In this document: positions 10,419 to 33,081 of the stretch, in pieces
Layout of the letters: the number at the start of each line of letters is the position of its first letter
Numbering within the stretch: position 1 is the first letter of the stretch
Source: a virus
Length of the DNA stretch: 47,701 nucleotides
IMG/VR virus record: IMGVR_UViG_3300037134_000092
Span: 1-47,701 of that record
Strand: one strand, 5' to 3'
The notes under the pieces: generated by a model
Databases searched by the model: none
The model's input: only the letters and a program-made list of their open reading frames with translations
What the model was told of the DNA's origin: nothing
Program-made: the position numbers and the translations under genes

Positions 10419-10610
10419 GTGCTTGATATCCAAAGCCGTGAAAAGACCGATAATAGTTGGAGTGCATGGATACCGGAAGGAGACATGTTCGTGGCCATAG
10501 CGCTTCGGCAGCTCGTTCGGGCGTTAGAGGACAGTTGTACGGAGCCCGTCTGTGCCATTACTGTTCGTTGGGCTGACAATGACAAGACGCAGTTTATTCT
10601 GGACGCCTGA
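10419..10610 (+). CDS. Small hypothetical protein, first gene of RNA ligase operon
   Basis: 63 residues from GTG 10419 with GGAAAGGGG upstream. Contains MFVAIALRQLVRALEDSC, an amphipathic helix, and ends TVRWADNDKTQFILDA. Soluble and mildly acidic. Its TGA overlaps the RNA ligase ATG (TGATG), so the two are co-translated and probably share regulation through the tandem operator. No family recognised. Confidence 0.6.
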   Translation: MLDIQSREKTDNSWSAWIPEGDMFVAIALRQLVRALEDSCTEPVCAITVRWADNDKTQFILDA

Positions 10611-17025: not shown

Positions 17026-17373
17026 GTGACCCCCGACGAACCTCTTTTTGCTGCTCTTTCCGGTCTTGATCCTCAACCATCCCGCGATTGGCTGGATGCA
17101 ATGAAGGACGAGATTATGGGATATGCCACAGAATTGAAAGACCTGAATACAATGCCGTCCGATGAGGCCATGCAGTGGATATCTGCCATATCCGCCCGTG
17201 TGCACGAGATGATCATGGAAACCCTCAGGTCAGACGGCCGTCAGGCGACGAAGTGGCGTATTGATGGGTTGCTTACAACTCGTGACGAGTTGCGTTTTCA
17301 GTTCGAAGTTAGCAGCCGGCGTGTGACTTTGATGAAAATAGAGGCGGACCAACTAAGAGGCGAGGCATACTGA
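17026..17373 (+). CDS. Small helical protein between terminase and portal
   Basis: 115 residues from GTG 17026; no clear Shine-Dalgarno. Entirely helical and charged (RDWLDAMKDEIMGYATELKDL; ATKWRIDGLLTTRDELRFQFEV). Contains a PSDEAMQWISAISARVHEMIM segment resembling part of the protein at 13481. Its TGA overlaps the portal ATG. The role is unknown; position suggests packaging or portal assembly. Confidence 0.55.
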   Translation: MTPDEPLFAALSGLDPQPSRDWLDAMKDEIMGYATELKDLNTMPSDEAMQWISAISARVHEMIMETLRSDGRQATKWRIDGLLTTRDELRFQFEVSSRRVTLMKIEADQLRGEAY

Positions 17374-19391
17374 TGGCAAAGAACCAGGCTCTCATCAATG
17401 ACCCAGTTACCATTCGTCCGGTTGGTCCCGTACCTCCGATGACGGCTTCCAGCAAGCTTGGCCGGGCCATTCCCACTCGTCCTCGGACTCGCAGAGCGCC
17501 CAGGATCAAGAAGGACGCCCAGCTGACAGCCAGTTCTAACTCCGAAGACGTGGAGATTTGGCAGTCTTCTGATGGACGGATGGGGGCGGCAGTTATCAAC
17601 CGGTCTGGTATCCCTACTCGCCAAGTGTTGGGCGGACAGTTTGAAGATCCATCGGTTAAACCCCTGATGGACGCCATGGTGACGTGGACGCACAACGTGC
17701 AAGGTGGACGGGGTGGTAGGGGTCGGCAGGGCAACTTGTACGAACGAGATCTGTTTGTCGTAGAGGACTCGTTCTTTGAACAGGTGGCGGCGGCGTACAA
17801 CGCTGCTGACGATGATGTGGTGGGCGCATATCTGTCGTCCTCCGAGGCACTGGCTTTCGGTAATATCAAGATCGAATGTGACGATGAGGACGAAGAGAAC
17901 ATCTGGGAACAAATCACCGACAAGATCGACCTTTCTTCTCGTATGCGTGAGATCTGGCATGAGCTGGCTATAACGGGTCAGGCTTATATTGCTTCTTGGT
18001 ATGGGACGCAGTCTTTCAAGGTGCAGGGCAAGAATACCGGGACTGGTGTCAAGCGCAAGAAACCTTTCAACAACCTGACGGTTCCACTGGGACTTACTGT
18101 TCTGGACCCATTCAAGGTGATTGCGACTGGGAACTTCTTGTTTAATCAGGAAACTCTAGTGTATATTGCGGATCCGACAGAGAAGGACGTCATCGACTCC
18201 TGGTTGCTGGGTGATAATGCTTCTGGCGCTGACCCCATCATTCAGCGTCTGATCGTGGCCAAGTACGAACCTGACTATCGTGACCGTAAAGAGCTGGTCA
18301 ACATTGGTGGAGGTGGCTACAGCGTTGACCCCAACCGTCTGTACGTTTTGAATCCGAAGTACGTTTGGCGCCACACACTGACCCGGCCGGCTTATTCTCG
18401 GTTCGCTCCTGTTCCGATGCGTCGCATCTTTGAGCTGCTTGACCTGAAACGGCAGCTCAAGGCCGCTGACAGAGCAGCCCTTATTGGGGTGGCGCAGTTT
18501 ATTATCTTGATCACCAAGGGTACCGACAAGCATCCGGCGGACCAGTACGAGATCGATTTCTTGCAAACTCAGGCTTCCACCATGGGAGGTTCTCCTGTGT
18601 TGATCGGTGATCACCGGCTGCACGTAGAAATTATCACTCCTAAGACTGAGCATATCATTGACGAGGGTCGCTACGGAGTGCTGAACCTGGCCATCCAGGG
18701 TTCTCTCTATGGGATGTTCATGACGACCCACGCCGGCAGAGACGATAGCTTGAAGCTTGCCCGGGTGGTTGCTCGTGGATTGGAGTCTCGTCGGGACATG
18801 CAACGTATGTCGCTTATGGACAACGTGTTCACGCCAATCTACGAGTTGAATGATTCTTTGACGGCGCTGCCAAGGATGGCTTTTCACCCCAAGAGAATTG
18901 CTCTGGACTTTGACCCGTCGCTGGCCACATACCTGCTTGACCTGCGTGACCGTGGCGATTTGTCTCGTAAGTCGACCCTGGCGGAAGTGGATTACGATGA
19001 AGCTGACGAGGCTAAACTTCGCCAGATGGAGATTGCCAAGTACGACAAGTTCTTCCAGCCTCCGGTAGCTACGCTAGCTCCTGCTAACAGCACAGCTCCC
19101 AAGCCTGGAGGTCCGGCGCCTGGGTCTCCAAGTGATCCTAAAGTCGCTGGTAGGAGTCAAGGAGGCAATCATGACCATGGAGGCAACGGGGGCAAAGCCC
19201 GTGGTGCTGGTCAAGCGCCGATCAGCGGGACGCCCAAAGATGCCCACGGTGGGACCTCTACTCCTCCCGGCTCGTCCGCCGTAAAGGGGATAAGGTCTCG
19301 CCCTAGGCTGGAGAAACATGGTCAAACGTCCGAGCTTGAGGATTCTGAATCGGCCGAGCTGGAGGATTCTGAACCAGCTAACGACGACTGA
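17373..19391 (+). CDS. Portal protein
   Basis: 672 residues. The dodecameric portal forms the DNA entry vertex. The 'clip-stem-wing' region shows the usual pattern: LAITGQAYIASWY, RHTLTRPAYSRFAPVPMRRIFELLDLKRQLKAADRAAL (around 330-365), a GSPVLIGDHRLHVEIITP loop, then ALDFDPS and YDEADEAK near the end. A long low-complexity tail (Gly/Pro/His, ending in a duplicated 'LEDSE' segment) follows from about residue 570. Order terL-small gene-portal supports the call. Confidence 0.85.
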   Translation: MAKNQALINDPVTIRPVGPVPPMTASSKLGRAIPTRPRTRRAPRIKKDAQLTASSNSEDVEIWQSSDGRMGAAVINRSGIPTRQVLGGQFEDPSVKPLMDAMVTWTHNVQGGRGGRGRQGNLYERDLFVVEDSFFEQVAAAYNAADDDVVGAYLSSSEALAFGNIKIECDDEDEENIWEQITDKIDLSSRMREIWHELAITGQAYIASWYGTQSFKVQGKNTGTGVKRKKPFNNLTVPLGLTVLDPFKVIATGNFLFNQETLVYIADPTEKDVIDSWLLGDNASGADPIIQRLIVAKYEPDYRDRKELVNIGGGGYSVDPNRLYVLNPKYVWRHTLTRPAYSRFAPVPMRRIFELLDLKRQLKAADRAALIGVAQFIILITKGTDKHPADQYEIDFLQTQASTMGGSPVLIGDHRLHVEIITPKTEHIIDEGRYGVLNLAIQGSLYGMFMTTHAGRDDSLKLARVVARGLESRRDMQRMSLMDNVFTPIYELNDSLTALPRMAFHPKRIALDFDPSLATYLLDLRDRGDLSRKSTLAEVDYDEADEAKLRQMEIAKYDKFFQPPVATLAPANSTAPKPGGPAPGSPSDPKVAGRSQGGNHDHGGNGGKARGAGQAPISGTPKDAHGGTSTPPGSSAVKGIRSRPRLEKHGQTSELEDSESAELEDSEPANDD

Positions 19392-19699
19392 TGATCTTTG
19401 TCCTACCACTGGTTGTCTTCGGGGCGATGGCGTTTCAGGACGTCTTCAGCACGGCGAAGATAGAGTTGCTTGAGCAGCGTCATCCCTGGTTGGCAGGCAT
19501 GGCGGATGGTTTCGCCGATGTTGGAGGTGCTCTCTCGGTTGGTATTGGTGGGGCGTCCATTTTGCGTTACGGCTTTAGTCCAGAGACTCTTTTGATCATG
19601 CTGGCTTTATGGTCGGCGTCTGTGGTCGGGGCCCGGATTGGTTACTGGTTGACCAATCGCAACCGTATTGACACAGAGCCTCCAATTACGCTAATCTAA
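19391..19699 (+). CDS. Small membrane protein
   Basis: 102 residues from ATG 19391, overlapping the portal stop. Three hydrophobic stretches (MIFVLPLVVFGAMAF; FADVGGALSVGIGGASIL; LLIMLALWSASVVGARIGYWL) make two to three membrane helices, with a short polar C terminus. Small polytopic proteins of this kind sit near portal genes in several actinophages; role unknown, holin possible. It is followed by a different-looking region starting at the methyltransferase. Confidence 0.65.
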   Translation: MIFVLPLVVFGAMAFQDVFSTAKIELLEQRHPWLAGMADGFADVGGALSVGIGGASILRYGFSPETLLIMLALWSASVVGARIGYWLTNRNRIDTEPPITLI

Positions 19700-19750
19700 A
19701 TGGTATGCCCTGCGTAGAGGAACTTTTACGAGACAACGTCGAATGGGCAG

Positions 19751-21496
19751 ATGACTATGAGTAACATGTTGCCCATGGACCAAGACATCTTCGTGAAACG
19801 CACCGATCCCGTCTACATGGCTCATGCCTATCTCACCAAAGTCCCCCTTGCTGCGATCGAGCCGTTCATCACGCGCTTCACCGAACCTGGCGCAACCGTT
19901 GTGGACCCCTTCGCCGGCTCTGGCATGACCGGCGTCGCCGCCGCGATCCTTGGACGCTCCGCACGTCTGTTCGATATCAGTGTCCTCGGTCAGCACATCG
20001 GCCGCAACTACCTCAATGTCGTCGATCCCGACAACCTCACCAAGGCTGCTTCCAGAGCCGTCCACGAAGCCACCCAGCTTGTCGGGGACCTCTATTCAAT
20101 AAGCTGCTCCCGTTGCGCCTCTCAGGCCGCCACACTCACCAAGACCACTTGGAGCGTGGTACTGCGCTGCCCTCAATGTGAAACGCCCGTCAACTACTAC
20201 CGCGCCCTCCAAGCCGCTGCCTGGGACAAGTCCCGTACTCTCTGTTCGACTTGCCACTCGAATCTCAGCACAAAAGCGCCCCGAGTCGCGGAGGAACCCG
20301 TTCTCGACTCGATCACTTGTCCCTGCTCATCTGTTCAGATCGACCAACCCCCCGACCTGAATTGCCCCGAAGCCCCGGCACTGGATATCAGCCCCCCCTC
20401 CGTAGACATCCCTGCCGATCGTCAGATGTACCAGGCCTCAGCCTTGGGCAAGCATGGCCTCACCACCGTCGCTTCTTTTTACAGTCCTCGAAATATCGCT
20501 GTCCTAACCGCCCTCCGCCACGTAATCGGCGCCATCGATGACGAGCCGCTCCGTAACAAGCTGACCTTCGTCTTCACTTCCATCCTCACACGCGCATCGA
20601 AACGATACCAGTGGTCACACAAGCGTCCCCTCAATGCAGCCAACGCGAACTATTACGTCGCTCCTGTCTTCTACGAGTGGAACGTGTTCGATCTATTCCT
20701 TCGCAAAGTTGATGCCGCTATCAGCTCTGACCAGTGGCTTCTTGATCGCCACCTCACGGAGACCGGCACGCCGACCTTAGCCCCTGATGTCACATACAGT
20801 CTTGCTAGCGCCGATCGTCTTCCTCTCCCTGATAACAGCGTCGACTACGTATTTACCGACCCTCCCTTTGGCTCCAACCTCTTCTACGCCGACATGGCAC
20901 TGTTCCAGGAGGCCTGGCTGGGCCGCTTTACCGACCACACACTCGAAGCGGTCATCGACCGTGGCAATCGAAAGAAACGGGACGGCGACCGATACGAGCG
21001 CTTACTGACGGCTGCGCTGAACGAGTGCCGACGCGTCCTTCGCCCTGGTGGCTACATAACTATGGTCTTTGGTAACTCGTCGGGGCACGTGTGGCATCTG
21101 GTGCAACGTGCCGTCAGCGCCGCTGGCCTCACAATTGACCCCGACTCCATCGTCATCCTTAACAAGGGCCAACGCTCCGTCAAAGGTTTGGCCTCGGGCT
21201 TCGAAAATGTGGTCACTACGGACCTCATTCTCTCTATGCGACCAGCCCAACCGGCTGACCCCTCAGCTGTGCACATCCCCGCGTCCACTGAAGTCGATTC
21301 CGTCATCGCGACCCTCCTACAAACCCACCGTGCTGATACTCCCAGTCATCTCTACCTCGAACTCCTCCGACGTGGTATTGCCTCCGGCTGGGATTTGTCC
21401 GCTCTCGACCTCCGGCTAATCACAACCGCCGTCCGGGAACACGGTTGGGCTGTCAATCCCGCAACGGGTCACCTTGAGCGCAACCGTCCCTACTAG
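19751..21496 (+). CDS. DNA methyltransferase with internal zinc ribbons
   Basis: 581 residues. Residues 50-60 (VVDPFAGSGMT) are the SAM-binding motif I, and 366-373 (YVFTDPPF) the catalytic DPP(F/Y) motif IV of amino-methyltransferases (N6-A or N4-C). ECRRVLRPGGYITMVFGNS follows as the usual strand. Between the two motifs are about 300 residues with CxxC pairs (119/122 and 140/143; 165/168 and 190/192) that probably bind zinc and help target recognition. Codons are much richer in C-ending triplets (CTC, ACC, GAC, CGC) than in neighbouring head genes, suggesting transfer. It splits the portal from the maturation protease gene. A likely role is protection from restriction. Start may be 19751 or 19757. 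Confidence 0.8.
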   Translation: MTMSNMLPMDQDIFVKRTDPVYMAHAYLTKVPLAAIEPFITRFTEPGATVVDPFAGSGMTGVAAAILGRSARLFDISVLGQHIGRNYLNVVDPDNLTKAASRAVHEATQLVGDLYSISCSRCASQAATLTKTTWSVVLRCPQCETPVNYYRALQAAAWDKSRTLCSTCHSNLSTKAPRVAEEPVLDSITCPCSSVQIDQPPDLNCPEAPALDISPPSVDIPADRQMYQASALGKHGLTTVASFYSPRNIAVLTALRHVIGAIDDEPLRNKLTFVFTSILTRASKRYQWSHKRPLNAANANYYVAPVFYEWNVFDLFLRKVDAAISSDQWLLDRHLTETGTPTLAPDVTYSLASADRLPLPDNSVDYVFTDPPFGSNLFYADMALFQEAWLGRFTDHTLEAVIDRGNRKKRDGDRYERLLTAALNECRRVLRPGGYITMVFGNSSGHVWHLVQRAVSAAGLTIDPDSIVILNKGQRSVKGLASGFENVVTTDLILSMRPAQPADPSAVHIPASTEVDSVIATLLQTHRADTPSHLYLELLRRGIASGWDLSALDLRLITTAVREHGWAVNPATGHLERNRPY

Positions 21497-21751
21497 AAGC
21501 CACCGGTCCTCTGCGGAACCTGCTCAGGCCCCGTCTTGTACCGTCTACCCCGTGGGCGCTGACCAAGGCCATCCGTGGCCTGGTAGTCACCTGCCCGCTT
21601 AGGAACCCGAGGCTTGCCAAGTATCTCCCAACGAGGTTCATACCTGCCCCGTGCCGTTGCTCCTGTTAGCCGAGTTCACTCTCGGGGCCCCACGAGGCGT
21701 CACTCTGGTTTTTAGCAAGTTAGGTAGTCTGGTTGGTCGAACACATTATTG
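21497..21751. other. Gene-free stretch after the methyltransferase
   Basis: About 255 bp with no gene I can support. The methyltransferase frame stays open for 21 codons past its TAG (KPPVLCGTCSGPVLYRL...). A minus-strand frame of about 57 codons (RYEPRWEILGKPRVPKRAGD...) is open from roughly 21665 down to 21494 but has no start codon. Composition follows the methyltransferase rather than the phage, so this is probably the tail of the imported segment. TAGTCT at 21725-21730 may be a -10 for the protease gene. Confidence 0.4.
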
Positions 21752-22537
21752 ATGACCAATATCGTCCTTGAAGGTAAACGCGGCATCGTTGTCGCCTCTC
21801 AGGCCCGGGTTGTGGAAGAGGGCCGAGAACTCGCGTGGGCTGAGCCGTTTGTACGGCGGGCACCCGACGTCAAATGGTTGATCGGGAATTACGTCCAAGC
21901 ATCCACAGAAACGGCATCTCGACCAAACAGCAATGGTCATATTTTTCCGCTTGCTGATCTGCGGGACGCTGTTCAAGATATCCCCAATCGCCCGCTTAAC
22001 TACCTCCACATCCCTAACCGCCGCATCGGTTGTTTCACTGCGGCTGAGTTTGTGTGGCCCATGGGGGAACCCTCGGCAGAGGCTGCCGGCGTAGAAGAGC
22101 CGCCCATTATTGAGGTGCTAGCTGCGTTCTGGAGTTACTACGACGAGGGGCTCTGGCCTTCCATCGAGATGGCCCACAGAGACGGACGTCTATGGTTCTC
22201 CATGGAAGCTGTACCTGAGAGCTTGACATGTATGGCGGAGAGCTGTGGGAAGTCCTTTACCTATGATGGTCCTGGCAGCTTGACCTACTGTGCTCACTTG
22301 CAGAGACCACGTTCGCAAAAGACACTTCACAAGCCTCGTTTCACTGGTGGCGCCTTGATTGTTCCGCCAGTTCGTCCTGGTTGGGTTAACGCCAACATCA
22401 AGGAAGTGACTCAGTTGCTTGAACAGGACCTTCAACTGACCGATAGGTTATATAAGGAAGTAGCGGCAGAGTCGCCGCAGCTCGAAACGACTGAGATCGA
22501 AAATATCGTAACGATTTTACTTCACGCAGGAGGATGA
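21752..22537 (+). CDS. Prohead (capsid maturation) protease
   Basis: 261 residues from ATG 21752 (a TTG lies one codon earlier). NRPLNYLHIPNRRIGCF holds the candidate catalytic His region. SYYDEGLWPSIEMAHRDGRLWFSMEAVPESLTC matches the 'S-M-E' strand of phage head maturation proteases, followed by a CAESCGKSF cysteine pair and a PVRPGWVNA segment. The enzyme cleaves scaffold and capsid during maturation. Order portal-protease-scaffold-decoration-capsid is standard, ignoring the inserted methyltransferase. Confidence 0.7.
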   Translation: MTNIVLEGKRGIVVASQARVVEEGRELAWAEPFVRRAPDVKWLIGNYVQASTETASRPNSNGHIFPLADLRDAVQDIPNRPLNYLHIPNRRIGCFTAAEFVWPMGEPSAEAAGVEEPPIIEVLAAFWSYYDEGLWPSIEMAHRDGRLWFSMEAVPESLTCMAESCGKSFTYDGPGSLTYCAHLQRPRSQKTLHKPRFTGGALIVPPVRPGWVNANIKEVTQLLEQDLQLTDRLYKEVAAESPQLETTEIENIVTILLHAGG

Positions 22538-22538
22538 C

Positions 22539-23654
22539 ATGCCCTTGACTAAGCCAGAGTGGGAAAAAGCCATGGACATGGTTCAGGCTGCCCTCATTAC
22601 GGAAATTCCCGCTGACGGTGGCTGGCAGGTGAAGCCCCCTCTGCACTACACGAAGAACACCAACTCCGAGGAAATGCCCAACAACCATCCGGCCAATGCC
22701 GACACCAGCCATGACGGTGACGAACCCGGTGGGGGTACTGCCGGGGGTGGACTGACGGAAGAGATCCCTGCTGACGGTGGTTTCCAGGTGAGGGGTCCTC
22801 TGACATACACGGAGAACAAGGTATCGCAGGAAATGCCTGACGCCCATCCGGCCAAGGCGTCGATTGCTCAGCGAGCTGCTGCCATCTCTAAGGCTGCCGT
22901 CGATTTTGGTGTCGATACAGCTACAGCATGGCAGGGTGTGAAGACAAGCGGAACCGGCAACAAGGGTAAGCCTGACATTTCCGGTGACACGGCAAAAGGC
23001 TGGTCCAAGGGTAAGCCTCTACCGAGATCAAAGGCTCTCGGGAAGAGTACCGCCGCGGCCGTTCCCGCTAAGAGCAGTGTCTCGTTGGAGCCAGGTGACC
23101 CCAAGGGTCTCGCTCATTCCAACCCTACGCCACGTTCTAGCATGGCGAGCGCTTCGGATCCCACTACGGTGGGTCCTTGGGATTCTCCCCAGCTGCCTGA
23201 TGGGTCATTCTCCCTTGCTCAGCCGGGTGATGTTGCTGCCGCTGTAGGCAAGGTTCAGACAGCCGAGACGACTCTGCCCGCTAGGGCGGGGCACGTACAT
23301 TTTCAGGAAGTCAAGAACCACATCGCCAAGCGTGCCAACGTTTTGGGTGTGAGTCATCTTGTGCCCCCAGACTGGCAGCTTTCCATGGCTATGGCAGCTT
23401 CGCTGGAAATAGCTCGCAAGTTTACAGACGAAGAGCGACAGGCTTTGGCCAAGGATGGCAAGGCCATGCCAGGTGGGGGATACCCCATTAAAGATCTGGA
23501 AGATCTTGATAATGCAATACAGGCTTACGGTCGTGAACCTGAAGGTAAACGGGGTGCTCTTAAGTCTCATCTTGCTCGTCAAGCACGTGCACTGAAGGCC
23601 GGTAAGAGTGTTTTGGCACGTATTGCCGCTCTCGCTAGTATCGATTCTAAGTAA
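22539..23654 (+). CDS. Head assembly protein with internal duplication
   Basis: 371 residues, start ATG 22539 with CAGGAGG upstream. A 33-residue unit is duplicated in tandem (residues 22-54 and 75-107; both carry EIPADGG(W/F)QV and EMP--HPA-A). The disordered centre is Ser/Pro/Lys-rich. The C-terminal half has two copies of a small helical motif: HFQEVKNHIAKRANVLGVSHLVP and KDLEDLDNAIQAYGREP with SHLARQARAL. That motif is common in phage head proteases and scaffold-related proteins. Likely a scaffold partner; the exact role is inferred. Confidence 0.55.
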   Translation: MPLTKPEWEKAMDMVQAALITEIPADGGWQVKPPLHYTKNTNSEEMPNNHPANADTSHDGDEPGGGTAGGGLTEEIPADGGFQVRGPLTYTENKVSQEMPDAHPAKASIAQRAAAISKAAVDFGVDTATAWQGVKTSGTGNKGKPDISGDTAKGWSKGKPLPRSKALGKSTAAAVPAKSSVSLEPGDPKGLAHSNPTPRSSMASASDPTTVGPWDSPQLPDGSFSLAQPGDVAAAVGKVQTAETTLPARAGHVHFQEVKNHIAKRANVLGVSHLVPPDWQLSMAMAASLEIARKFTDEERQALAKDGKAMPGGGYPIKDLEDLDNAIQAYGREPEGKRGALKSHLARQARALKAGKSVLARIAALASIDSK

Positions 23655-23666
23655 GGGGATTGACCG

Positions 23667-24404
23667 ATGCCGAAGGATAAGTTAGTGAACAATGCAAAGG
23701 CGATCCATGACGTGCTGATGGCGAATATGCCTGATGACGCTGTACATGACGCTAAGACTTGCGTTGTCTGTTCCGTAGAGCCCGAAGGAGGGAAAGTGCC
23801 GGACGGTAAAACTTACACCGCCGAAGAGATGCAGGCAGCTCTGGATGTGGCGACCACGCCCCTCCTACAGGAGCTGGCCCGTTTCCAATCGGCTGAAAGT
23901 ACCGCTGCTATTGATGATGCGGTAGGAGCCGTGAGGGCAGAACTCGAAGTTCGCATTGACGAACTTCAGGCTGAACTCGATCTCACTGTCTTGGGTAAGC
24001 AAGCTGCAATTGATGAGTTTGCTAACTTCAAGGCGGACAAGGAAGCCAAGGAGAAGGAAGACGAGGACGCCAAGGGATGGGATGCTAAGAAAGCAGCTCG
24101 TACAAAGGACGCCATCGAAATCGCTTCTTTCCCTGAGGACTACGTCGCAGCGAATGCTGACCGCTGGACCGCTCTGACTGACGAGGTTTGGGAAGAGCGC
24201 AAAGCCGAGTGGGCTGCAATCGCCCCTATTTCAGGATCGGCCGATCGTCTCGGCGCCTCGATCCCCAAGACGACCGCTCTTGGTTCTCTGACAGCGGCTC
24301 GTGAGACGGGACAGACCCGTACCAACACAACCACCAAGCATCGGGCCCTTATGCACGACGTCATGTCGGGCATGCAGCAGGGCTTCGATCCCCGGTCTAT
24401 CTGA
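23667..24404 (+). CDS. Scaffolding protein
   Basis: 245 residues, highly charged and helical. After a CVVC pair (~32-35) comes KTYTAEEMQAALDVATTPLL. The coiled coil around 88-138 includes EVRIDELQAELDLTVLGKQA and the KADKEAKEKEDEDAKGWD run. A Thr/Ser-rich loop and a basic C terminus (TKHRALMHDVMSGMQQGF) complete it, as scaffold C termini bind capsid. Position directly before the decoration and capsid genes supports the call. Confidence 0.7.
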   Translation: MPKDKLVNNAKAIHDVLMANMPDDAVHDAKTCVVCSVEPEGGKVPDGKTYTAEEMQAALDVATTPLLQELARFQSAESTAAIDDAVGAVRAELEVRIDELQAELDLTVLGKQAAIDEFANFKADKEAKEKEDEDAKGWDAKKAARTKDAIEIASFPEDYVAANADRWTALTDEVWEERKAEWAAIAPISGSADRLGASIPKTTALGSLTAARETGQTRTNTTTKHRALMHDVMSGMQQGFDPRSI

Positions 24405-24413
24405 GGAGGGTAG

Positions 24414-25052
24414 ATGGCATCTTACGGACGTAACTTCGAATTCCGCATCCCTCCGAAGCCAGAGGCCAGGGCGGGCCGTTTCATTAGCCCCGCAACTGCA
24501 CTTTCTGGTTCTGGTAGTGGTGGTGGTTCAGGTGCTGGTGGGTCTCCCACTGGCGCCGTCGGGCTGCTCCCCATAGGCGTTCCTGTCGTAGCGGATCTTA
24601 CCGCTGGTCAGGACGCTCAGGGTGCTCAGTATGTCAAGCTTGCTACGGCAGGTGAGACCACAACTTCTGTGGGCGTCTTCGGGTTGCTCATGTTCGAATA
24701 CGGTCCTGCGGCTTTCGCCCTGACCGATCCGTACATGACTACCTATTCCGATCTCGGAATAGTCCCGCCGAACGTTTACTGCCTCGTTATAGCCGGCGAT
24801 CCGGCAACGAAGATCGTTCTGCGTAACACCTTGGCTTTCTCCTTCTTGGGTCAGCGTAACTACGCTGGTCGGACCATGGTGAACGGTCTCGGTGCTACAC
24901 CGGATGTCACTGCCGGGGACTATCTGGTCCCGGGTGCTGGCGACGATGCCGATGGCTACTGGGAATCAACCGGTACTGCCGCAGGCGCATGGGCTGTCAT
25001 TACTCACGTAGATTCTGCAAGGGCCGAAGTCGAAGCTCGGCTGCTCTTCTGA
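24414..25052 (+). CDS. Capsid decoration/stabilisation protein
   Basis: 212 residues with GAGGAGGG before the ATG. A Gly-Ser linker (SGSGSGGGSGAGGSP, about 31-45) separates an N-terminal arm from a beta-rich domain (LLPIGVPVVADLTAG; GDYLVPGAGDDADGYWE; AVITHVDSARAEVEARLLF). This resembles lambda gpD-like head fibre/decoration proteins and stands just before the major capsid gene. Strong expression is likely, but homology is by pattern only. Confidence 0.6.
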   Translation: MASYGRNFEFRIPPKPEARAGRFISPATALSGSGSGGGSGAGGSPTGAVGLLPIGVPVVADLTAGQDAQGAQYVKLATAGETTTSVGVFGLLMFEYGPAAFALTDPYMTTYSDLGIVPPNVYCLVIAGDPATKIVLRNTLAFSFLGQRNYAGRTMVNGLGATPDVTAGDYLVPGAGDDADGYWESTGTAAGAWAVITHVDSARAEVEARLLF

Positions 25053-25068
25053 AAGGGGGGGGCTAAAA

Positions 25069-26052
25069 ATGACCAAAGTACTTATGGACAACAAGGGCCG
25101 CTCTCTTGAAGATAGGCGTGTCTGGGAAATCCAGAAGAAACAGCTTAATGAGATCGCTCGTGACAACTGGGACGATCCGTCCTGGCGTCGGGAGATGGCT
25201 CAGGAGCTGACCGAAACCATTTACTTGGGCTTCGAGCATGAGAATCTGCTCGGCTACATGACCCAGGTCGAGAATGCCGACTTCGACGAGCGTGTGTTCG
25301 TGAAGGAAGTCAGAGGTCTTCGGGCCTTCTTCGTAGCCCGTGGTGGCTATATCGAGTCCAGCTCGGTTCACTCCGAGGTGTTCGAGATTACTCGTGAGAC
25401 CGTAGGGTTCCACGTTTACGAAGAGGAAGACAAGCTGCGCACGAACTTCGCCGAAACTCAGGCGACGCTCGTGGAACTGGGTGTCCAGCGTTTGGACGCC
25501 ACAGTCAACAGCTGGTTCTTCACCGGTCTGCAGGCTGCAGTTCCCTCGGGTGCACCTAACTACCACCTCGTCGATGACCTGTCTACTTCAGGTCTTGGAC
25601 TCGTCAACACTGCGTTGACGGCCGTCCGTGACGTGTCTCGTGACTGGGAAGTTGCGATAGTAGGTCGTAGCACGATGACCGACCAGATTGTGAATGCCCT
25701 GTTGGGCATTGGCACTCAGGGCGGTGCCGGGTTCTTCCCGGAGACCAATGAAGCCCTGCTCCGTCGGGGCGTTCTCGGGGTCTATCGTGGTGCCCAAATC
25801 ATCTCGCTGAAGAACTACCTCGATGACACTGGGGTGCCGTACTTCCCAGCCAACGAGCTCTGGGTCATCGGCCGGGACGCAAGTAAATTTGCGTTTTTTG
25901 GGGGACTTTTGTCGAAGGAATGGATAGAAAATGCTGCTTGGGAGTGGCATTATCTGGCTCGGCGTGACGCCGGCTTCGTAGTCCATCGTCCCCTGCGTTC
26001 CGCTCGTATCGTCGACAGCTCGATAGCGCCGTACACGGTTATCGCTGAGTGA
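25069..26052 (+). CDS. Major capsid protein (HK97 fold)
   Basis: 327 residues with AAAGGGGGGG upstream. An N-terminal charged arm (RRVWEIQKKQLNEIARDN) precedes the E-loop/P-domain pattern. SVHSEVFEITRETVGFHVYEE, a GVQRLDATVNSWFF helix and an A-domain (WEVAIVGRSTMTDQIVNALLG; LGVYRGAQIISLKNYLDD) follow, and RIVDSSIAPYTVI ends it. No separate delta domain, because a scaffold gene is present. A strong terminator follows immediately, fitting high expression. Confidence 0.82.
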   Translation: MTKVLMDNKGRSLEDRRVWEIQKKQLNEIARDNWDDPSWRREMAQELTETIYLGFEHENLLGYMTQVENADFDERVFVKEVRGLRAFFVARGGYIESSSVHSEVFEITRETVGFHVYEEEDKLRTNFAETQATLVELGVQRLDATVNSWFFTGLQAAVPSGAPNYHLVDDLSTSGLGLVNTALTAVRDVSRDWEVAIVGRSTMTDQIVNALLGIGTQGGAGFFPETNEALLRRGVLGVYRGAQIISLKNYLDDTGVPYFPANELWVIGRDASKFAFFGGLLSKEWIENAAWEWHYLARRDAGFVVHRPLRSARIVDSSIAPYTVIAE

Positions 26053-26080
26053 GCTAGACTCACCAAGCTGTCCAGTAGTA

Positions 26081-26119
26081 AAGAAGAGGGCCCCCAATAG
26101 GTACGGGGGTCCTCTTCTT
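26081..26119 (+). terminator. Strong hairpin terminator after the capsid gene
   Basis: A 15-bp stem (26081-26095 with 26105-26119; AAGAAGAGG...CCCCC against GGGGG...CCTCTTCTT, one G-T pair) with a 9-nt loop. It is followed by GTTGCCT rather than a T run, as in many high-GC terminators. Confidence 0.8.
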
Positions 26120-26132
26120 GTTGCCTACTGAC

Positions 26133-26160
26133 TTGACACTCGCTCTGGATGGTGTACTCT
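26133..26160 (+). promoter_or_regulatory. Promoter TTGACA-16-TACTCT, leaderless
   Basis: TTGACA (26133-26138) and TACTCT (26155-26160) lie right behind the terminator. The ATG at 26168 is 7 nt after the -10, so the transcript probably begins at or just before the start codon. Confidence 0.65.
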
Positions 26161-26167
26161 GGAGCAT

Positions 26168-26365
26168 ATGCCATACCAGAAGTCGGGCCAGAATTGTATT
26201 TCGTGCGGCAAGCCTAAGCCACCGGGGATGGGTCGAGGTCGTAAGACCTGTTCGGAGGCATGCCAGGAGGCGGTCTATCAGGCGAGGTTGGACTTCAATC
26301 AGACGTGGCGTCGAGAACACCAGCGTCCGGGAATGGACCTGCGCGGCCTGCGGCGTCACGCATGA
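26168..26365 (+). CDS. Zinc-finger protein truncated by TnpB fragment
   Basis: 65 residues from a leaderless [15 protein letters not shown] with [22 protein letters not shown] (C10, C13, C28, C32) is a zinc knuckle like those at the N termini of phage homing endonucleases. From about residue 53 ([13 protein letters not shown]) the frame reads out-of-frame TnpB sequence, so the native C terminus is missing. Probably the remains of a longer phage gene disrupted by an IS200/IS605-type element. Confidence 0.6.
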
Positions 26366-26501
26366 CCGGGACGTGAACGCGGCCCGGAACATCCTCGCCC
26401 TGGGACGCAGGGAGAGACTAAACGCCTGCGGAGGCGACGTAAGACCACTGCTTGCGGTGGCAGATGCCAGCGAAACAGGAAGCCTCAGAGGTGCCGCGTG
26501 A
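26325..26501 (+). pseudogene. 3' fragment of IS200/IS605-type tnpB
   Basis: In the +1 frame relative to the zinc-finger gene the sequence encodes [18 protein letters not shown] followed by [20 protein letters not shown] and ends ETGSLRGAA. This is the signature C terminus of TnpB: the CxxCG zinc knuckle, the [12 protein letters not shown] helix with its last RuvC Asp, and the 'LNACGG' tail typical of actinobacterial copies. Everything upstream (the RuvC I/II and WED/REC parts) is absent. The retained segment plus the right end below is exactly where omega/reRNA is encoded in intact elements. Confidence 0.8.
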
Positions 26502-26548
26502 CGCGGCACGGGCTGAATCCCCGTCCTTCAGGGCGGGGAGCGCGTCAA
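26491..26548 (+). mobile_element. IS200/IS605-type right end with two hairpins
   Basis: GTGCCGCG (26491-26498) and CGCGGCAC (26502-26509) pair perfectly around TGA, the tnpB stop codon. CCCCGTCC (26519-26526) pairs with GGGCGGGG (26531-26538) around TTCA. GAGCGCGTCAA follows, resembling the terminal sequence of actinobacterial TnpB elements, with the boundary probably after GTCAA (26544-26548). ATGTCT/AGACAT just beyond forms another small hairpin. Confidence 0.65.
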
Positions 26549-26598
26549 TGTCTGCTCAGACATGATACCATCACGACCGACACTATCAACATGGACAA

Positions 26599-26656
26599 CC
26601 TGCAACCAACCCCCCGACCGCCTGGTGGCAGCGGCGCTGGCTGAGCTGGTTGCAGG
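26599..26656 (+). other. Inverted repeat with inner hairpin next to tRNA-Pro
   Basis: CCTGCAACC (26599-26607) and GGTTGCAGG (26648-26656) form a perfect 9-bp stem enclosing 40 nt that includes CAGC-GGC-GCTG. At 58 nt it is too short for a tRNA. It could be a degenerate tRNA or a processing structure before tRNA-Pro. Confidence 0.35.
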
Positions 26657-26671
26657 GCGCCGCTTGTGCCT

Positions 26672-26743
26672 CAGGTACAAGTCGCGGGGTGTGACGCTGG
26701 TTTTGGAAACCAGAAGCGCCGGGTCCGACCCCCGGGTACCTGA
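26672..26743 (+). tRNA. tRNA-Pro (anticodon TGG), CCA encoded
   Basis: Acceptor CAGGTAC/GTACCTG, D arm GTCG-CGGGGTG-TGAC, anticodon stem CTGGT/ACCAG with loop TTTGGAA, T arm CCGGG-TCCGACC-CCCGG and discriminator A, followed by CCA (26744-26746). The T loop is TCCGACC instead of TTC-. All stems pair. Confidence 0.85.
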
Positions 26744-26827
26744 CCAAAAGTAACGTCAGCATCGAACTATTACGATGCCTCTCCTGGGTCTCCGATACTT
26801 TGACTACAAGCAACCATAGGAGATCTA

Positions 26828-27601: not shown

Positions 27602-28450
27602 GTGACCGTTGCAAGTGCCAAGATCATTGCCGATTCCATCTCACCCAACGAGAGCCGGCTGATCACCCTTCAGGTCACCATACACAGGTTTGTCCTTTCA
27701 GAGTTCAATACCCATCGGGCCTTCTCCCGCAACTCGGCGTCGAGCCGGGCCATCCCTGTCAAGAAACAGATTGACCGGGTACTCAATGACCCTGCCATCC
27801 CCATCTCCTGGCCGCTAGAACAACCAGGGATGCAGGGAGGCGCCGAGTTGTCTACTAATCGAGACTACGCCATCAGGGAGTGGCTCATTGCCCGAGACCA
27901 CGCTGTTGAGTCCGTCAGACAACTGCAAGAGCTGGGAGTGCACAAGTCGATCACCAACCGTCTCCTGGAACCATGGATGTGGCAAGTAATTGTGTGTAGC
28001 AGCACTGAGTGGCAGAACTTTTTCGACCAGCGAGCGACAAGGTTCTCCCCTTTTGCCCAGCCCGAGATGCGGGCTGCAGCTGACGCAATGTTCGACGCCA
28101 TCGAGAGTTCTTCTCCTGTTCTAGTCCAACCAGGCGAGTGGCATCTGCCGTATGTGGATGAGGACGAATTCAACCTGTCAGATAAGGAAGATGGACCAGA
28201 GCTCGGCGAGTTGGAAATGGCCAAGATGTCCTCGGTGGCTCGATGTGCACGGGTCTCCACGTTGAACCAGGAAGGCAAGAGGGACTTAGACTCAGATCTG
28301 AAGCTGTATGACCGCCTGGCGAAGTCTGTACCTCCCCATGCCAGCCCACTTGAACACATAGCCACGCCGTTGGTAGACGGACCCCCGATGGGGAACTTCG
28401 CCGGCTGGCGTCAGTTGCGTCACATCGTTTTGAACAACGTTCAACCTTAG
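27602..28450 (+). CDS. thyX: Flavin-dependent thymidylate synthase ThyX
   Basis: 282 residues from GTG 27602 with AAGGAG upstream. Converts dUMP to dTMP using FAD, NADPH and methylene-tetrahydrofolate. The ThyX signature (RHRxxSxNExSxR) appears as THRAFSRNSASSR (about 38-50): the first Arg and the Glu of the usual motif are replaced, as in a phage subgroup of the family. WQNFFDQRA and ASPLEHIATP (His-rich active site) and a C-terminal FAGWRQLRH are also present. Length is at the upper end for ThyX. It supplies dTMP for phage DNA synthesis, or may use a modified substrate. Confidence 0.85.
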   Translation: MTVASAKIIADSISPNESRLITLQVTIHRFVLSEFNTHRAFSRNSASSRAIPVKKQIDRVLNDPAIPISWPLEQPGMQGGAELSTNRDYAIREWLIARDHAVESVRQLQELGVHKSITNRLLEPWMWQVIVCSSTEWQNFFDQRATRFSPFAQPEMRAAADAMFDAIESSSPVLVQPGEWHLPYVDEDEFNLSDKEDGPELGELEMAKMSSVARCARVSTLNQEGKRDLDSDLKLYDRLAKSVPPHASPLEHIATPLVDGPPMGNFAGWRQLRHIVLNNVQP

Positions 28451-28463
28451 AAAGGGGTCGACG

Positions 28464-28745
28464 GTGCTGGCAGGTGATGAAAGGTGTGTGAAGAGGATCT
28501 TGAATCTCGATCGAGCCGTTCTGTCCGAGGCCGTTGATGGCTGGCTGCAAACAACTGGATCGGCGAACTGGGGTCAGTCTTGTGATATCGTCAAGGCAGA
28601 CAACCGAGGCCCGGCTATCGAAATCATTCTGGACGCTCTGCTTGGTGTACTCGGGCACATGATCGCACCAGACCAGTTCCGTATTGACCGCAACCTGTTG
28701 CTGGAGAAGGTCGTCCGAGAGACAGCAGAGAAGTATCGGCAGTGA
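28464..28745 (+). CDS. Small hypothetical protein after thyX
   Basis: 93 residues from GTG 28464 with AAAGGGG upstream. Helical throughout (VKRILNLDRAVLSEAVDGWL; EIILDALLGVLGHMIA; RNLLLEKVVRETAEKYR). Co-transcribed with thyX by spacing (13 nt). No recognised family; similar small helical proteins often accompany nucleotide-metabolism genes in phages. Confidence 0.5.
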   Translation: MLAGDERCVKRILNLDRAVLSEAVDGWLQTTGSANWGQSCDIVKADNRGPAIEIILDALLGVLGHMIAPDQFRIDRNLLLEKVVRETAEKYRQ

Positions 28746-28836
28746 TGCCGATAAGACATTAGCACGGTAGAGGAGTCCGGTTGTCCCCGTCAGAGTCATA
28801 ATCCCGCCCGAGCCACTATAAACAGATAGGAGCCAT

Positions 28837-29103
28837 ATGACCATCATAGCCACCACACCACAGGTCCTTGCACCTGTCCAGCTCGCCCCTGAGGGCGCTC
28901 CGCAAACGCAGTTCACTGCCCCCGAATCCGAGGCTGTCGACGCCGCCCACCGGGCGCTCGGGGCGTGGCATACGGCCACGGGACTCCACGAGACCGACAT
29001 CCCGCCGGCCGGTGTGAACGTCTACGCTGATGGGGCTGATCCGTCCACCGCTGTGTGGACCCCAGCCGGACTGTTGGTTTCCGCCCCTGGACAGCACGAA
29101 TGA
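28837..29103 (+). CDS. Small hypothetical protein
   Basis: 88 residues, ATG with ATAGGAG upstream. Ala/Pro/Thr-rich (TPQVLAPVQLAPEGAPQTQF), then AAHRALGAWHTATGLHETD and VYADGADPSTAVWTPAGLL. Soluble, low-complexity in part. Its TGA overlaps the next gene. Codons are more C/G-rich than in neighbours, so it may be a recent arrival. Function unknown. Confidence 0.5.
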   Translation: MTIIATTPQVLAPVQLAPEGAPQTQFTAPESEAVDAAHRALGAWHTATGLHETDIPPAGVNVYADGADPSTAVWTPAGLLVSAPGQHE

Positions 29104-29255
29104 AAACGTTCATTCCTAAGGAACACGCTTTCCACAGTTGGGAGCGTGTGGATTCCTGGGTTGACACTGGTGGATCTCGGTGGGTTGAGGAGGTTTGTAA
29201 GAACTCCGAGCACAAAAAAGAGTGTGGTCAGCTTCGTCGTCGCCGGACCAGGTAA
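29100..29255 (+). CDS. Small basic protein
   Basis: 51 residues from ATG 29100, in ATGA with the previous stop. MKTFIPKEHAFHSWERVDSW is followed by EEVCKNSEHKKECGQ (two cysteines) and a strongly basic C terminus LRRRRTR. Probably nucleic-acid binding by composition. The frame's upstream extension is shadow of the previous gene. Confidence 0.45.
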   Translation: MKTFIPKEHAFHSWERVDSWVDTGGSRWVEEVCKNSEHKKECGQLRRRRTR

Positions 29256-29377
29256 GGTCCTTCTGAAGTAGAAGGGAGGTGGTCCCTGTCTCGGGAAAGC
29301 CCCCGCAAGTAGGCTTGACAGCTCGGAGAGACGAGCACCAGATACTTAGAAAGGTCCTTGGTTTAGGTGGTGATGAA

Positions 29378-29506
29378 ATGTTACTCCTTATTTTGCTGAT
29401 TATCCTGCTCTTTGCTTTCGCAGGCGGTGGGTTCGCCGTCCCCGCTCTCTGGGTCGTGGCCGTAATCGTGCTCGTCGCTCTGGTGGTTGTGGGCGTGCGT
29501 AGATAA
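29378..29506 (+). CDS. Tiny two-helix membrane protein (Lmo0937-like)
   Basis: 42 residues from ATG 29378 with AGGTGG 7 nt upstream. Nearly all hydrophobic: LLLILLIILLFAFAG, then ALWVVAVIVLVALVVVG, ending GVRR. Length and plan match small Lmo0937-type membrane proteins of bacteria, and would also suit a miniature holin. It is immediately followed by the tRNA pair. Confidence 0.55.
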   Translation: MLLLILLIILLFAFAGGGFAVPALWVVAVIVLVALVVVGVRR

Positions 29507-29516
29507 CTGAAGTCTT

Positions 29517-29589
29517 TTCCTCCTGGTGTAACCGGTAACACGTGCGCCTCTGGAGCGTGAGAGTCGAGGTTCGAAGCCTCGGGAGGAAG
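29517..29589 (+). tRNA. tRNA-Gln (anticodon CTG)
   Basis: Acceptor TTCCTCC/GGAGGAA, D arm GTGT-AACCGGTA-ACAC, anticodon stem TGCGC/GCGTG (two wobble pairs) with loop CTCTGGA, T arm CGAGG-TTCGAAG-CCTCG and discriminator G. CCA is not encoded. Confidence 0.85.
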
Positions 29590-29591
29590 CT

Positions 29592-29664
29592 GTGACCGAA
29601 GTGAATGGGGATACACGCTGCCCCGTGGAGGCGGAGATAGCCGGTTCGAGTCCGGTCGGTCACC
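29592..29664 (+). tRNA. tRNA-His (anticodon GTG), atypical
   Basis: Acceptor GTGACCG/CGGTCAC, D stem GTG/CAC, anticodon stem CTGCC/GGCGG with loop CCGTGGA, T arm GCCGG-TTCGAGT-CCGGT and discriminator C, followed by CCA (29665-29667). GTG-acceptor and C73 fit His identity. Odd points are C instead of T at position 33, a G-rich D loop, and T at -1. Confidence 0.7.
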
Positions 29665-29684
29665 CCATGGATCTGAGTACATCG

Positions 29685-29960
29685 TCCGAGGTAGTAATCG
29701 CGCCCGAGGTGGGTCATCATCGGTTCGATGAACTGGGCCCCGGGGATGACACGCCATGTCCTGTACTCAGGCGGGACGGCCACCCACAGCCCGCGCGCAG
29801 GAGAGAATACCCGGCCGCTTCGCGCCAACGGCTGCATCCGTACCCGGACATGCTCAGGCGGCACCTGCAGCAGCTGGGCGACCTCTTCGGTGCTCACGGC
29901 CAGCCGGCCGTGCGCGAGCAACGTGTCGAGTGCCTCTGCCGTCGTGTGGTGACCGGGCAT
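29685..29960 (-). pseudogene. Truncated AbiEi-like antitoxin (N-terminal winged-helix part)
   Basis: Read on the minus strand from ATG 29960 (AGGAGG 7 nt upstream), 92 residues match the N-terminal part of AbiEi-type antitoxins of type IV toxin-antitoxin systems. There is a winged helix (RLAVSTEEVAQLLQVPPEHV, RMQPLARSGRVFSPARGLWV), then PPEYRTWRVIPGAQFIEPMM and HLGRDYYLG. After 'YYLG' similarity stops, and the frame runs through the antisense of the two tRNAs into Arg-rich junk (stop near 29400). AbiEi proteins repress their own promoter through inverted repeats, and two such repeats lie upstream. No AbiEii toxin is present. The domain may still be a functional repressor. Confidence 0.75.
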
Positions 29961-29975
29961 CGAGTGCCTCCTCGC

Positions 29976-30001
29976 CCAAGGTAACGACCATCGTTACGTT
30001 G
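29976..30001. promoter_or_regulatory. Palindromic operator, copy 1
   Basis: GTAACGA-CCA-TCGTTAC (29981-29997), a perfect 7-bp inverted repeat, lies 20 bp before the AbiEi-like start codon. A 26-nt block around it is identical to copy 2. Confidence 0.8.
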
Positions 30002-30052
30002 GCCTACTGAATACTACACACGGTTGTCTCTGGTTGCCCAGCGATTGACGCG

Positions 30053-30078
30053 CCAAGGTAACGACCATCGTTACGTTG
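30053..30078. promoter_or_regulatory. Palindromic operator, copy 2
   Basis: The same 26-nt block with GTAACGA-CCA-TCGTTAC at 30058-30074, 77 bp from copy 1. On the minus strand TAGTAT (about 30016-30011) lies between the copies and could be the -10 of the AbiEi-like gene. TTGACG boxes (30045, 30076) face the HNH gene. Confidence 0.8.
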
Positions 30079-30176
30079 ACGCACCGACCACTGCTGGCGG
30101 GACGTCTCGCCGTTGACGCTGGAATGGCGATGCGAACCAGGCGGGTGCTCTCGGAGACCTTCCAGATCTGGGCTTT

Positions 30177-30452
30177 ATGCGTGCTTTTCAGACCAGAGAG
30201 GCCCGAGCCACGGTTACACTTAAAGACCTCCACCGTTTGTTGGTTCGTTTTGATTGGTGCTGTGCCTATTGTGGGAAAAAGCTCGACTTGGCGACTAAGG
30301 GTTCTCAGGCGTTGGAGTGGGACCACGTTGTTCCAATCTCCAGGGGTGGAAGACATTCAATAGGGAATCTTTTGCCGGCCTGTAGCTTCTGCAACCGGTC
30401 GAAGGGTAACAGATTTTTGGTAGAATGGAAACGCCGACCAACTTGCCGATAA
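30177..30452 (+). CDS. HNH endonuclease
   Basis: 91 residues. CAYCG (C29, C32), LEWDHVVPISRGG (D49, H50), SIGNLLPACSFCNRSKGNR (N64, C69, C72) form a complete beta-beta-alpha HNH site with a four-cysteine zinc. Free-standing HNH nucleases act in packaging or as homing enzymes. The ATG at 30177 has no Shine-Dalgarno and a TGA blocks extension beyond 30114, so the true start is uncertain. It stands directly before the connector gene at the right edge of the accessory zone. Confidence 0.82.
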   Translation: MRAFQTREARATVTLKDLHRLLVRFDWCCAYCGKKLDLATKGSQALEWDHVVPISRGGRHSIGNLLPACSFCNRSKGNRFLVEWKRRPTCR

Positions 30453-30479
30453 AGACAGAGAAGGTCTAGGAGGTGGGTC

Positions 30480-31118
30480 TTGATTGATTTGAGCGAGTAC
30501 CAGCAGAACTACCTGTTCGCCATTTCTCCACCGGGGCAAGCAATGCTGGCCTCAACCACTGCGGGTTCTACCGGCCCCTTCGTCAACATGTCCGAGACCG
30601 AGATAGTTGGTCGCTTGTCAGATGCTTTCTGGATGATGCGACTCGTTGGCATGGATTTTTTGGCCTGCTGGAATTGTTCTGATGACGGGATCATAACGCC
30701 CCGCACGTCGGGCAATATCGGCAACACCCAGCAACGTCTTCCTCCGTCATGGTACCTCGATGGGTCCATAGACAGCTCGACAGGGCTGCCCGACCTGGGC
30801 CGGCAGATAGTACAGGCGATTATCCTGTATGCCGCTTACAAGAGCGTACAAACTCAACTGATCAACATCAAGACGATGGTCTCTTACAAGGCTGGTCCGG
30901 TCAGCTACGAGGTGCAGCAGTCAGCCAATGTTTTGCAGAACCTACTGAAGATCCTTACGGCTGAGATAGACATAACGATTACTCGTCTTTCTGACCTGGG
31001 GAGCACAACCGTCCAGGTGTTTGATGCTGTAATGGAGGTAACCCGCAATCAGGAACTCGGGAGCGCAACATGGGTCCGCGGTGGTGGGACTTCTAATGGG
31101 GGGCGTGACTATGTGTGA
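30480..31118 (+). CDS. Head-tail connector (adaptor) protein
   Basis: 212 residues from TTG 30480, chosen for the strong AGGAGGTGGG before it. MIDLSEYQQNYLFAISPPGQ is followed by a helical body with GRQIVQAIILYAAYKSVQTQLINIKT and SYEVQQSANVLQNLLKIL. The mostly helical plan and position as the first structural gene after the accessory zone fit a gp6/gp15-type adaptor that docks on the portal. Homology is inferred from order, not motif. Confidence 0.55.
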   Translation: MIDLSEYQQNYLFAISPPGQAMLASTTAGSTGPFVNMSETEIVGRLSDAFWMMRLVGMDFLACWNCSDDGIITPRTSGNIGNTQQRLPPSWYLDGSIDSSTGLPDLGRQIVQAIILYAAYKSVQTQLINIKTMVSYKAGPVSYEVQQSANVLQNLLKILTAEIDITITRLSDLGSTTVQVFDAVMEVTRNQELGSATWVRGGGTSNGGRDYV

Positions 31119-32250: not shown

Positions 32251-33081
32251 GTGCCGAAACATAATAGTATGATTCCATGTAAGGTACTTGATTGCACCCG
32301 TTTGGCGGTTGCCAACGGTTTCTGTGGTGCCCATTATCGTCGTTTGCGCATCAAAGGGGACGTTCAGGCGGACATTCCTATTCGAGAGCGACTGACGAGA
32401 GAACGAGACGTTTGTTCTGTTGTTGATTGTGAACGTCTCGTTCTCGCAAAGGGCATGTGTTCTCCGCATTACTACCGTTGGAAGACTACAGGTACGGCTG
32501 CGCCGGAGCGGAGATTGCGAGGGACGAAGACCAATTGTCGAGTTTTAGGTTGCGACCGGCCGTCCTATTGTTTGAACGTCTGTCGAACCCATTATTCACG
32601 CCTCCGTTCTGGCGATCTAAAAGAAGACGTGGCTATCGGTCTGCATCCACCAACAGAGTGCACAGTGCCAGGGTGTTTGAGGACAGAGTATGTACGGGGA
32701 TGGTGTGCGGGACACTACTATCGTTGGAAGACATGTGGAGATGTTCAAGCCGCCAAACCTCTACGTCGGTTGAGAAGGTTAAAGGGGACGCCCCGGATCA
32801 AGGAAGGTTACGTTTACATCAACTCACGGGCTGAACATCGCCTGGTGATGGAACAAGTTCTTGGACGTCCTCTTCTCTCCAACGAGAACGTCCACCATAA
32901 GAATACCATTCGTGCCGATAATAACCCTAGTAACCTGGAACTGTGGAATGTCAGTCAACCTAAAGGTGGTCGAGTGCGAGACAAACTGGCGTGGGCCCTT
33001 GAGTTCGTTGCTAAATATATGCCAGATGTTCTGACCGACGTCCCAGCTCTGGTTGCCCAAGCAGAAGTTATGTACCCATGA
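32251..33081 (+). CDS. HNH homing endonuclease with four zinc knuckles
   Basis: 276 residues. Four repeats of the form C-x(4)-C-x(6-8)-(G/V)-x-C-x(2)-H-Y-x-R occur at about residues 10-32, 55-76, 96-117 and 137-158 (e.g. CGAHYRRLR, CSPHYYRWK, CRTHYSRLR, CAGHYYRWK), a DNA-reading zinc array. The HNH domain is EHRLVMEQVLGRP then NVHHKNTIRADNNPSNLELW (about 204-240). This is a typical mobile endonuclease inserted between structural genes. Start is GTG 32251 or ATG 32269; Shine-Dalgarno is weak. Confidence 0.82.
   Translation: MPKHNSMIPCKVLDCTRLAVANGFCGAHYRRLRIKGDVQADIPIRERLTRERDVCSVVDCERLVLAKGMCSPHYYRWKTTGTAAPERRLRGTKTNCRVLGCDRPSYCLNVCRTHYSRLRSGDLKEDVAIGLHPPTECTVPGCLRTEYVRGWCAGHYYRWKTCGDVQAAKPLRRLRRLKGTPRIKEGYVYINSRAEHRLVMEQVLGRPLLSNENVHHKNTIRADNNPSNLELWNVSQPKGGRVRDKLAWALEFVAKYMPDVLTDVPALVAQAEVMYP

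Follow-up and report, generated by a model that had tools for sequence, protein, structure and literature searches.

The viral record analysed here (47,701 bp in full, hereafter the window) probably owes about 522 bp of its sequence to a recent and accidental capture of host chromosomal DNA, a piece that most likely has no function in the phage. The captured fragment (29686 - 30207, minus strand; blastn) comprises the 5' third of an abiEi gene, its ribosome-binding site, a promoter region with two putative operators, and a further stretch of about 130 bp lying upstream. Over its 522 bp, it aligned at 89% identity in 523 columns to an Acidimicrobiaceae MAG (PMLI01000111.1; locus L011, positions 1370 - 848), and its part from 29686 to 30100 aligned at 82% identity to a second host locus, L012. 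The identity to L011 extends from the abiEi codons across the ribosome-binding site and the two operators into the DNA upstream, hence through coding and non-coding DNA alike, and this identity is combined with sharp ends and with absence from sister phages, as is characteristic of host-derived fragments. When the island from 28450 to 30480 was compared with the whole host genomes G001 and G002, the match was confined to this segment, the GC content of which is host-like (63.8% versus 55.1% for the whole window). The initial annotation had placed the site at 29685 - 30078; the site is real, but the host-derived DNA is wider, reaching 30207 and entering the open reading frame of an HNH endonuclease.

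Locus L011 possesses two operators, followed by a full abiEi gene (266 aa; Pfam AbiEi_1, 1.7e-33) and an abiEii gene (242 aa; Pfam AbiEii, 8.9e-26). Locus L012 contains abiEi as well, followed by an abiEii that is read in two frames (138 and 122 aa), which is due to a genuine frameshift or to an error in the assembly. Among 397 genomes of the host order, no closer donor than L011 was retrieved, and the exact donor was not found. From the source of the fragment, the host of the phage is probably Acidimicrobiaceae-like. A search of the same 397 genomes with the capsid-region protein of the phage, run without a positive control, gave no match. Elsewhere in the window, an 82-bp stretch within a DNA methyltransferase gene (20836 - 20917) is 80% identical to host genome G001 (contig C527).

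The abiEi part of the fragment (29685 - 29960, minus strand) encodes residues 1 - 92 of an AbiEi protein in an intact frame, comprising the winged helix and the first helix of the C-terminal domain, as indicated by PADLOC, host identity, and AlphaFold2. A GAGGAGG motif precedes the ATG at 29960. The 92 residues matched the PADLOC AbiEi profile (E=8.1e-22; profile positions 3 - 88 of 258), were 93% and 91% identical to the full-length AbiEi of two Acidimicrobiaceae MAGs, and matched annotated plasmid AbiEi genes by tblastn, down to 5e-8. The match to Pfam AbiEi_1 was below threshold (E=0.057) and no NCBIfam AbiEi match occurred, which is expected for this fragment, because AbiEi_1 models the C-terminal domain. 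A sequence search among solved structures gave no match, and a fold search returned generic winged-helix regulators only, none of them below E=0.001. AlphaFold2 modelled residues 11 - 90, covering the winged helix and the first C-terminal-domain helix, as a block with a pLDDT of 81 - 93; from residue 95 onwards, the pLDDT was below 50 apart from a few residues. The C-terminal antitoxin domain is absent, as homology ends at residue 92 and the window contains no further AbiEi. Similarly, tblastn with host and plasmid AbiEii sequences revealed nothing significant in the window for the abiEii toxin gene. The initial annotation had thus correctly recognised the ribosome-binding site, the AbiEi-type N-terminal winged helix, and the loss of both the antitoxin part and the toxin. 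It had also described the gene as encoding the N-terminal part only, which is accurate for the AbiEi homology but not for the frame. Indeed, the minus-strand frame stays open for 186 aa (29400 - 29960) and runs antisense across tRNA-His and tRNA-Gln, its run-on (29400 - 29684, minus strand) consisting of 94 meaningless codons of low pLDDT before a stop. Since no stop codon occurs where the gene is cut, any product would bear a 94-aa artificial tail.

Upstream of abiEi, the 17-bp palindrome GTAACGA-CCA-TCGTTAC occurs in two exact and identical copies (29981 - 29997 and 30058 - 30074), in agreement with the two intact palindromes of the initial annotation. The copies lie within a putative proximal operator (29977 - 30001, CAAnGTAACGAnnnTCGTTACnTTG; -17 to -41 relative to the start of abiEi) and a putative distal operator (30054 - 30078, again CAAnGTAACGAnnnTCGTTACnTTG; -94 to -118). 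Allowing up to three mismatches, the window contained eight palindrome matches, against a mean of 1.36 in shuffled sequences, none of 100 shuffles reaching eight; apart from the two copies, no match with two or fewer mismatches was present in the window. Similar palindromes had been predicted upstream of host abiE genes and were found there in both L011 and L012. The counterparts of the distal operator are perfect (L011 at 982, L012 at 3885) and those of the proximal operator carry two mismatches in L011 (at 1059) and one in L012 (at 3964), so that the phage has two perfect operators, whereas each host has an imperfect one. Furthermore, each host genome contains the perfect palindrome once, at the abiE promoter. 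At three positions of the proximal operator, the phage has replaced a state common to both hosts by that of the distal operator, changes that resemble gene conversion and are possibly older than the capture. The distant abiE loci L013 and L036 contain a related, longer palindrome at a roughly equal distance from the gene. Because the palindromes sit at abiE promoters and are kept across loci, they are, by position and conservation, operators of this abiE family, at which we infer binding; as far as sequence goes, the phage promoter region possesses inverted-repeat operators that match those of host abiE promoters. A sigma-70 scan found no promoter, and TAGTAT was noticed by eye between the operators. 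One copy of the 17-mer is present in each of four other viral contigs, likely by chance, since tblastn found no AbiEi in these contigs.

The fragment lies between tRNA genes and an HNH endonuclease gene, and both its ends cut into a gene. At the left junction, the abiEi homology ends at codon 92, and 18 unassigned bases (29668 - 29685) separate this point from the 3' end of the phage tRNA-His (29592 - 29667, plus strand; ARAGORN), which has no match in host genomes G001 and G002 and is preceded by the phage tRNA-Gln (29517 - 29590, plus strand; ARAGORN). The phage contains four tRNA genes, and an RNA ligase domain (Pfam PF09414, 8.5e-10) was found at 10610 - 11947. At the right junction, the host identity continues to 30207, making the first 10 codons of the HNH open reading frame (30177 - 30452, plus strand) host DNA. 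This frame retains an intact HNH domain (Pfam HNH, E=8.7e-14) and is 5'-truncated. Indeed, all HNH homologues examined have 79 - 168 more N-terminal residues before the shared part (118 in L044, 79 in L057, 118 in L058, 168 in L059, and 95 in L060). A search for the missing 5' part elsewhere in the window failed to recover it and matched only the zinc-finger region of a second HNH gene. That second HNH endonuclease gene (32251 - 33081) has an N-terminal zinc-finger region resembling gp37 of Gordonia phage BrutonGaster. With abiEi and the HNH gene both truncated at the fragment ends, the arrangement looks like a recombination scar rather than a purpose-built regulatory cassette.

Related phages lack the fragment. 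The related phage contigs L003 and L004, with 74% amino acid identity in the adjacent gene and about 98.6% identity to each other, contain neither the fragment nor the tRNA genes nor the HNH gene, and the corresponding place is occupied by a ThyX gene together with a short intergenic stretch. The expectation of conservation in related phages was therefore contradicted, an outcome that the initial annotation itself had named as counting against its proposal. Among the IMG/VR viral contigs searched for this AbiEi type, no relative was found, and the phage collection contained only two unannotated faecal contigs with AbiEi at about 30% identity, the one examined having a full-length gene. A recurrent phage AbiEi of this type was rejected, as the viral-contig searches were empty. 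The cargo region of the window contains a diverged ThyX of its own (27602 - 28450; Pfam Thy1, 4e-10), without a tblastn match in the relatives L064 and L065. The ThyX gene of L004 (6263 - 7930) is interrupted in frame by about 319 codons that encode LAGLIDADG homing-endonuclease domains; this insert begins with Cys, ends with GN before Thr, and is absent from L003, which is otherwise about 98.7% identical. From its sequence, the insert looks like an intein. In addition, a direct repeat (22602 - 22858; 98 bp, 73% identity, 159 bp apart) was found within the open reading frame at 22539 - 23654.

Taken as accidental capture, these data would be explained by the transfer of a piece of the abiE locus of an Acidimicrobiaceae-like actinobacterium into the phage by illegitimate recombination. 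The piece would have landed in a variable cargo region, between tRNA-His and the HNH endonuclease gene, bringing with it the abiE promoter, the two operators, and 92 abiEi codons, with a broken gene left at each side. It may have been acquired through the repair of a double-strand break or by the copying of host DNA, with a possible link to the HNH enzyme. The operators and frame would then have been kept intact by selection that acted in the donor bacterium, prior to capture. On the branch leading to the phage copy, with L012 as outgroup, we counted 16 coding substitutions, 14 of which are silent. Evolution free of constraint would predict 11.7 replacements, and two or fewer were not obtained in any of 20,000 draws. 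This pattern shows coding constraint, as judged from the substitutions, on a branch that includes time in the donor. It would be compatible, too, with selection acting on the protein inside the phage, the times before and after capture not being separable. Together with the two perfect operators of the phage, set beside one imperfect operator in each host, this silent-change bias counts against a mere passenger.

It is nevertheless unlikely that the phage has kept the fragment to control the host defence operon, be it as a decoy for AbiEi or as a truncated protein blocking the host operator. No truncation of the Streptococcus agalactiae AbiEi, the single AbiEi for which truncations have been assayed, was autoregulatory, truncations were unstable, and N-terminal ones were not protective, the C-terminal domain alone neutralising the toxin (PMC3985639). 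Rv2827c of Mycobacterium tuberculosis bound its several repeats as full protein, and the full length was needed for autoregulation (PMC7319586). With N-terminal truncations unstable and inactive and Rv2827c binding as full protein, the phage fragment most likely does nothing.

A decoy, in which the two operators, multiplied with phage replication, would draw host AbiEi away from its own promoter by titration and upset the balance between abiE toxin and antitoxin, is very unlikely. It would account for the perfection of both operators, including the proximal one with its three host-shared states changed to the distal state, and it fits the uniqueness of the perfect palindrome to abiE in the host genomes; however, gene conversion in the donor would give the same pattern, and conservation in related phages is lacking. 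Moreover, antitoxicity resides in the C-terminal domain (PMC3985639), and derepression would be expected to raise the levels of both toxin and antitoxin, from which no gain is evident. That the 92-residue domain plus tail is made and represses either host abiE or its own promoter is highly improbable, even though the ribosome-binding site and frame are intact, the winged-helix model is confident, and the branch displays the silent-change bias. Indeed, N-terminal truncations of the S. agalactiae protein are unstable and non-repressing (PMC3985639), autoregulation requires the full length (PMC7319586), the 94-aa tail is disordered in the model, and the phage has no other operator. The initial annotation had suggested reuse as a phage repressor or as a mimic acting on host AbiE. 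Both suggestions are overstated and lack support: the phage has no other operators, related phages show no conservation, the IMG/VR searches yielded no further relative, both fragment ends are ragged gene truncations, and the published truncations are inactive. A repressor with its own regulon was rejected, as the window contains no other operator at two or fewer mismatches, and a mimic of the antitoxin would lack the toxin-neutralising C-terminal domain.

An assembly chimera, with host reads joined into the phage contig, is highly improbable as well: although no independent contig crosses a junction, two separate false joins would be needed around a 522-bp piece in an otherwise continuous phage contig, and no evident junction repeat would cause them. 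Contig L063 (IMG/VR contig 3300037133_000102) is 100% identical to 17069 - 26681 (9.6 kb) and stops short of the locus, and a 29-mer across the left junction had no match in IMG/VR. The end of L063 lies close to the tRNA-Pro gene of the window (26672 - 26746) and possibly results from the strain-variable cargo region beyond.

Passenger DNA of this kind has a known setting, as host gene fragments occur in phage cargo regions beside HNH endonucleases and tRNA genes. Like such fragments, the one described here lies between virion genes, beside tRNA genes and an HNH gene, and is absent in relatives; unlike them, it can be assigned to a named source group, and the host promoter that it contains is recognisable, with both operators present. 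With the type IV AbiE loci, such as S. agalactiae AbiE and M. tuberculosis Rv2827c/Rv2826c, it shares the winged-helix N-terminal domain and the upstream palindromic operators, but it lacks the antitoxin domain and the toxin gene. Read as four half-sites, all located no more than about 120 bp from the start, its operators resemble in layout those of Rv2827c, where four repeats lie within 131 bp; as two palindromes 77 bp apart, they differ from the 23-3-23 bp layout of S. agalactiae AbiE. As a precedent for the capture, part of a toxin-antitoxin locus has recombined into the genome of phage PhiTE-F, which acquired ToxI antitoxin repeats from a toxIN plasmid by recombination (PMC3475682). However, PhiTE-F captured an active antitoxin that allowed escape, and here the antitoxin-active C-terminal part is missing.

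The capture of host DNA in this phage is ordinary but well traced, and it shows how the control region of a host defence locus, here a toxin-antitoxin system, can be followed from its source group into a phage genome. The fragment suggests that this uncultivated phage infects an Acidimicrobiaceae-like host, which is useful for host assignment, and its palindrome offers a well-defined operator candidate for abiE loci of this family. The decoy reading, if true, would add a novel route by which phages manipulate type IV toxin-antitoxin systems.
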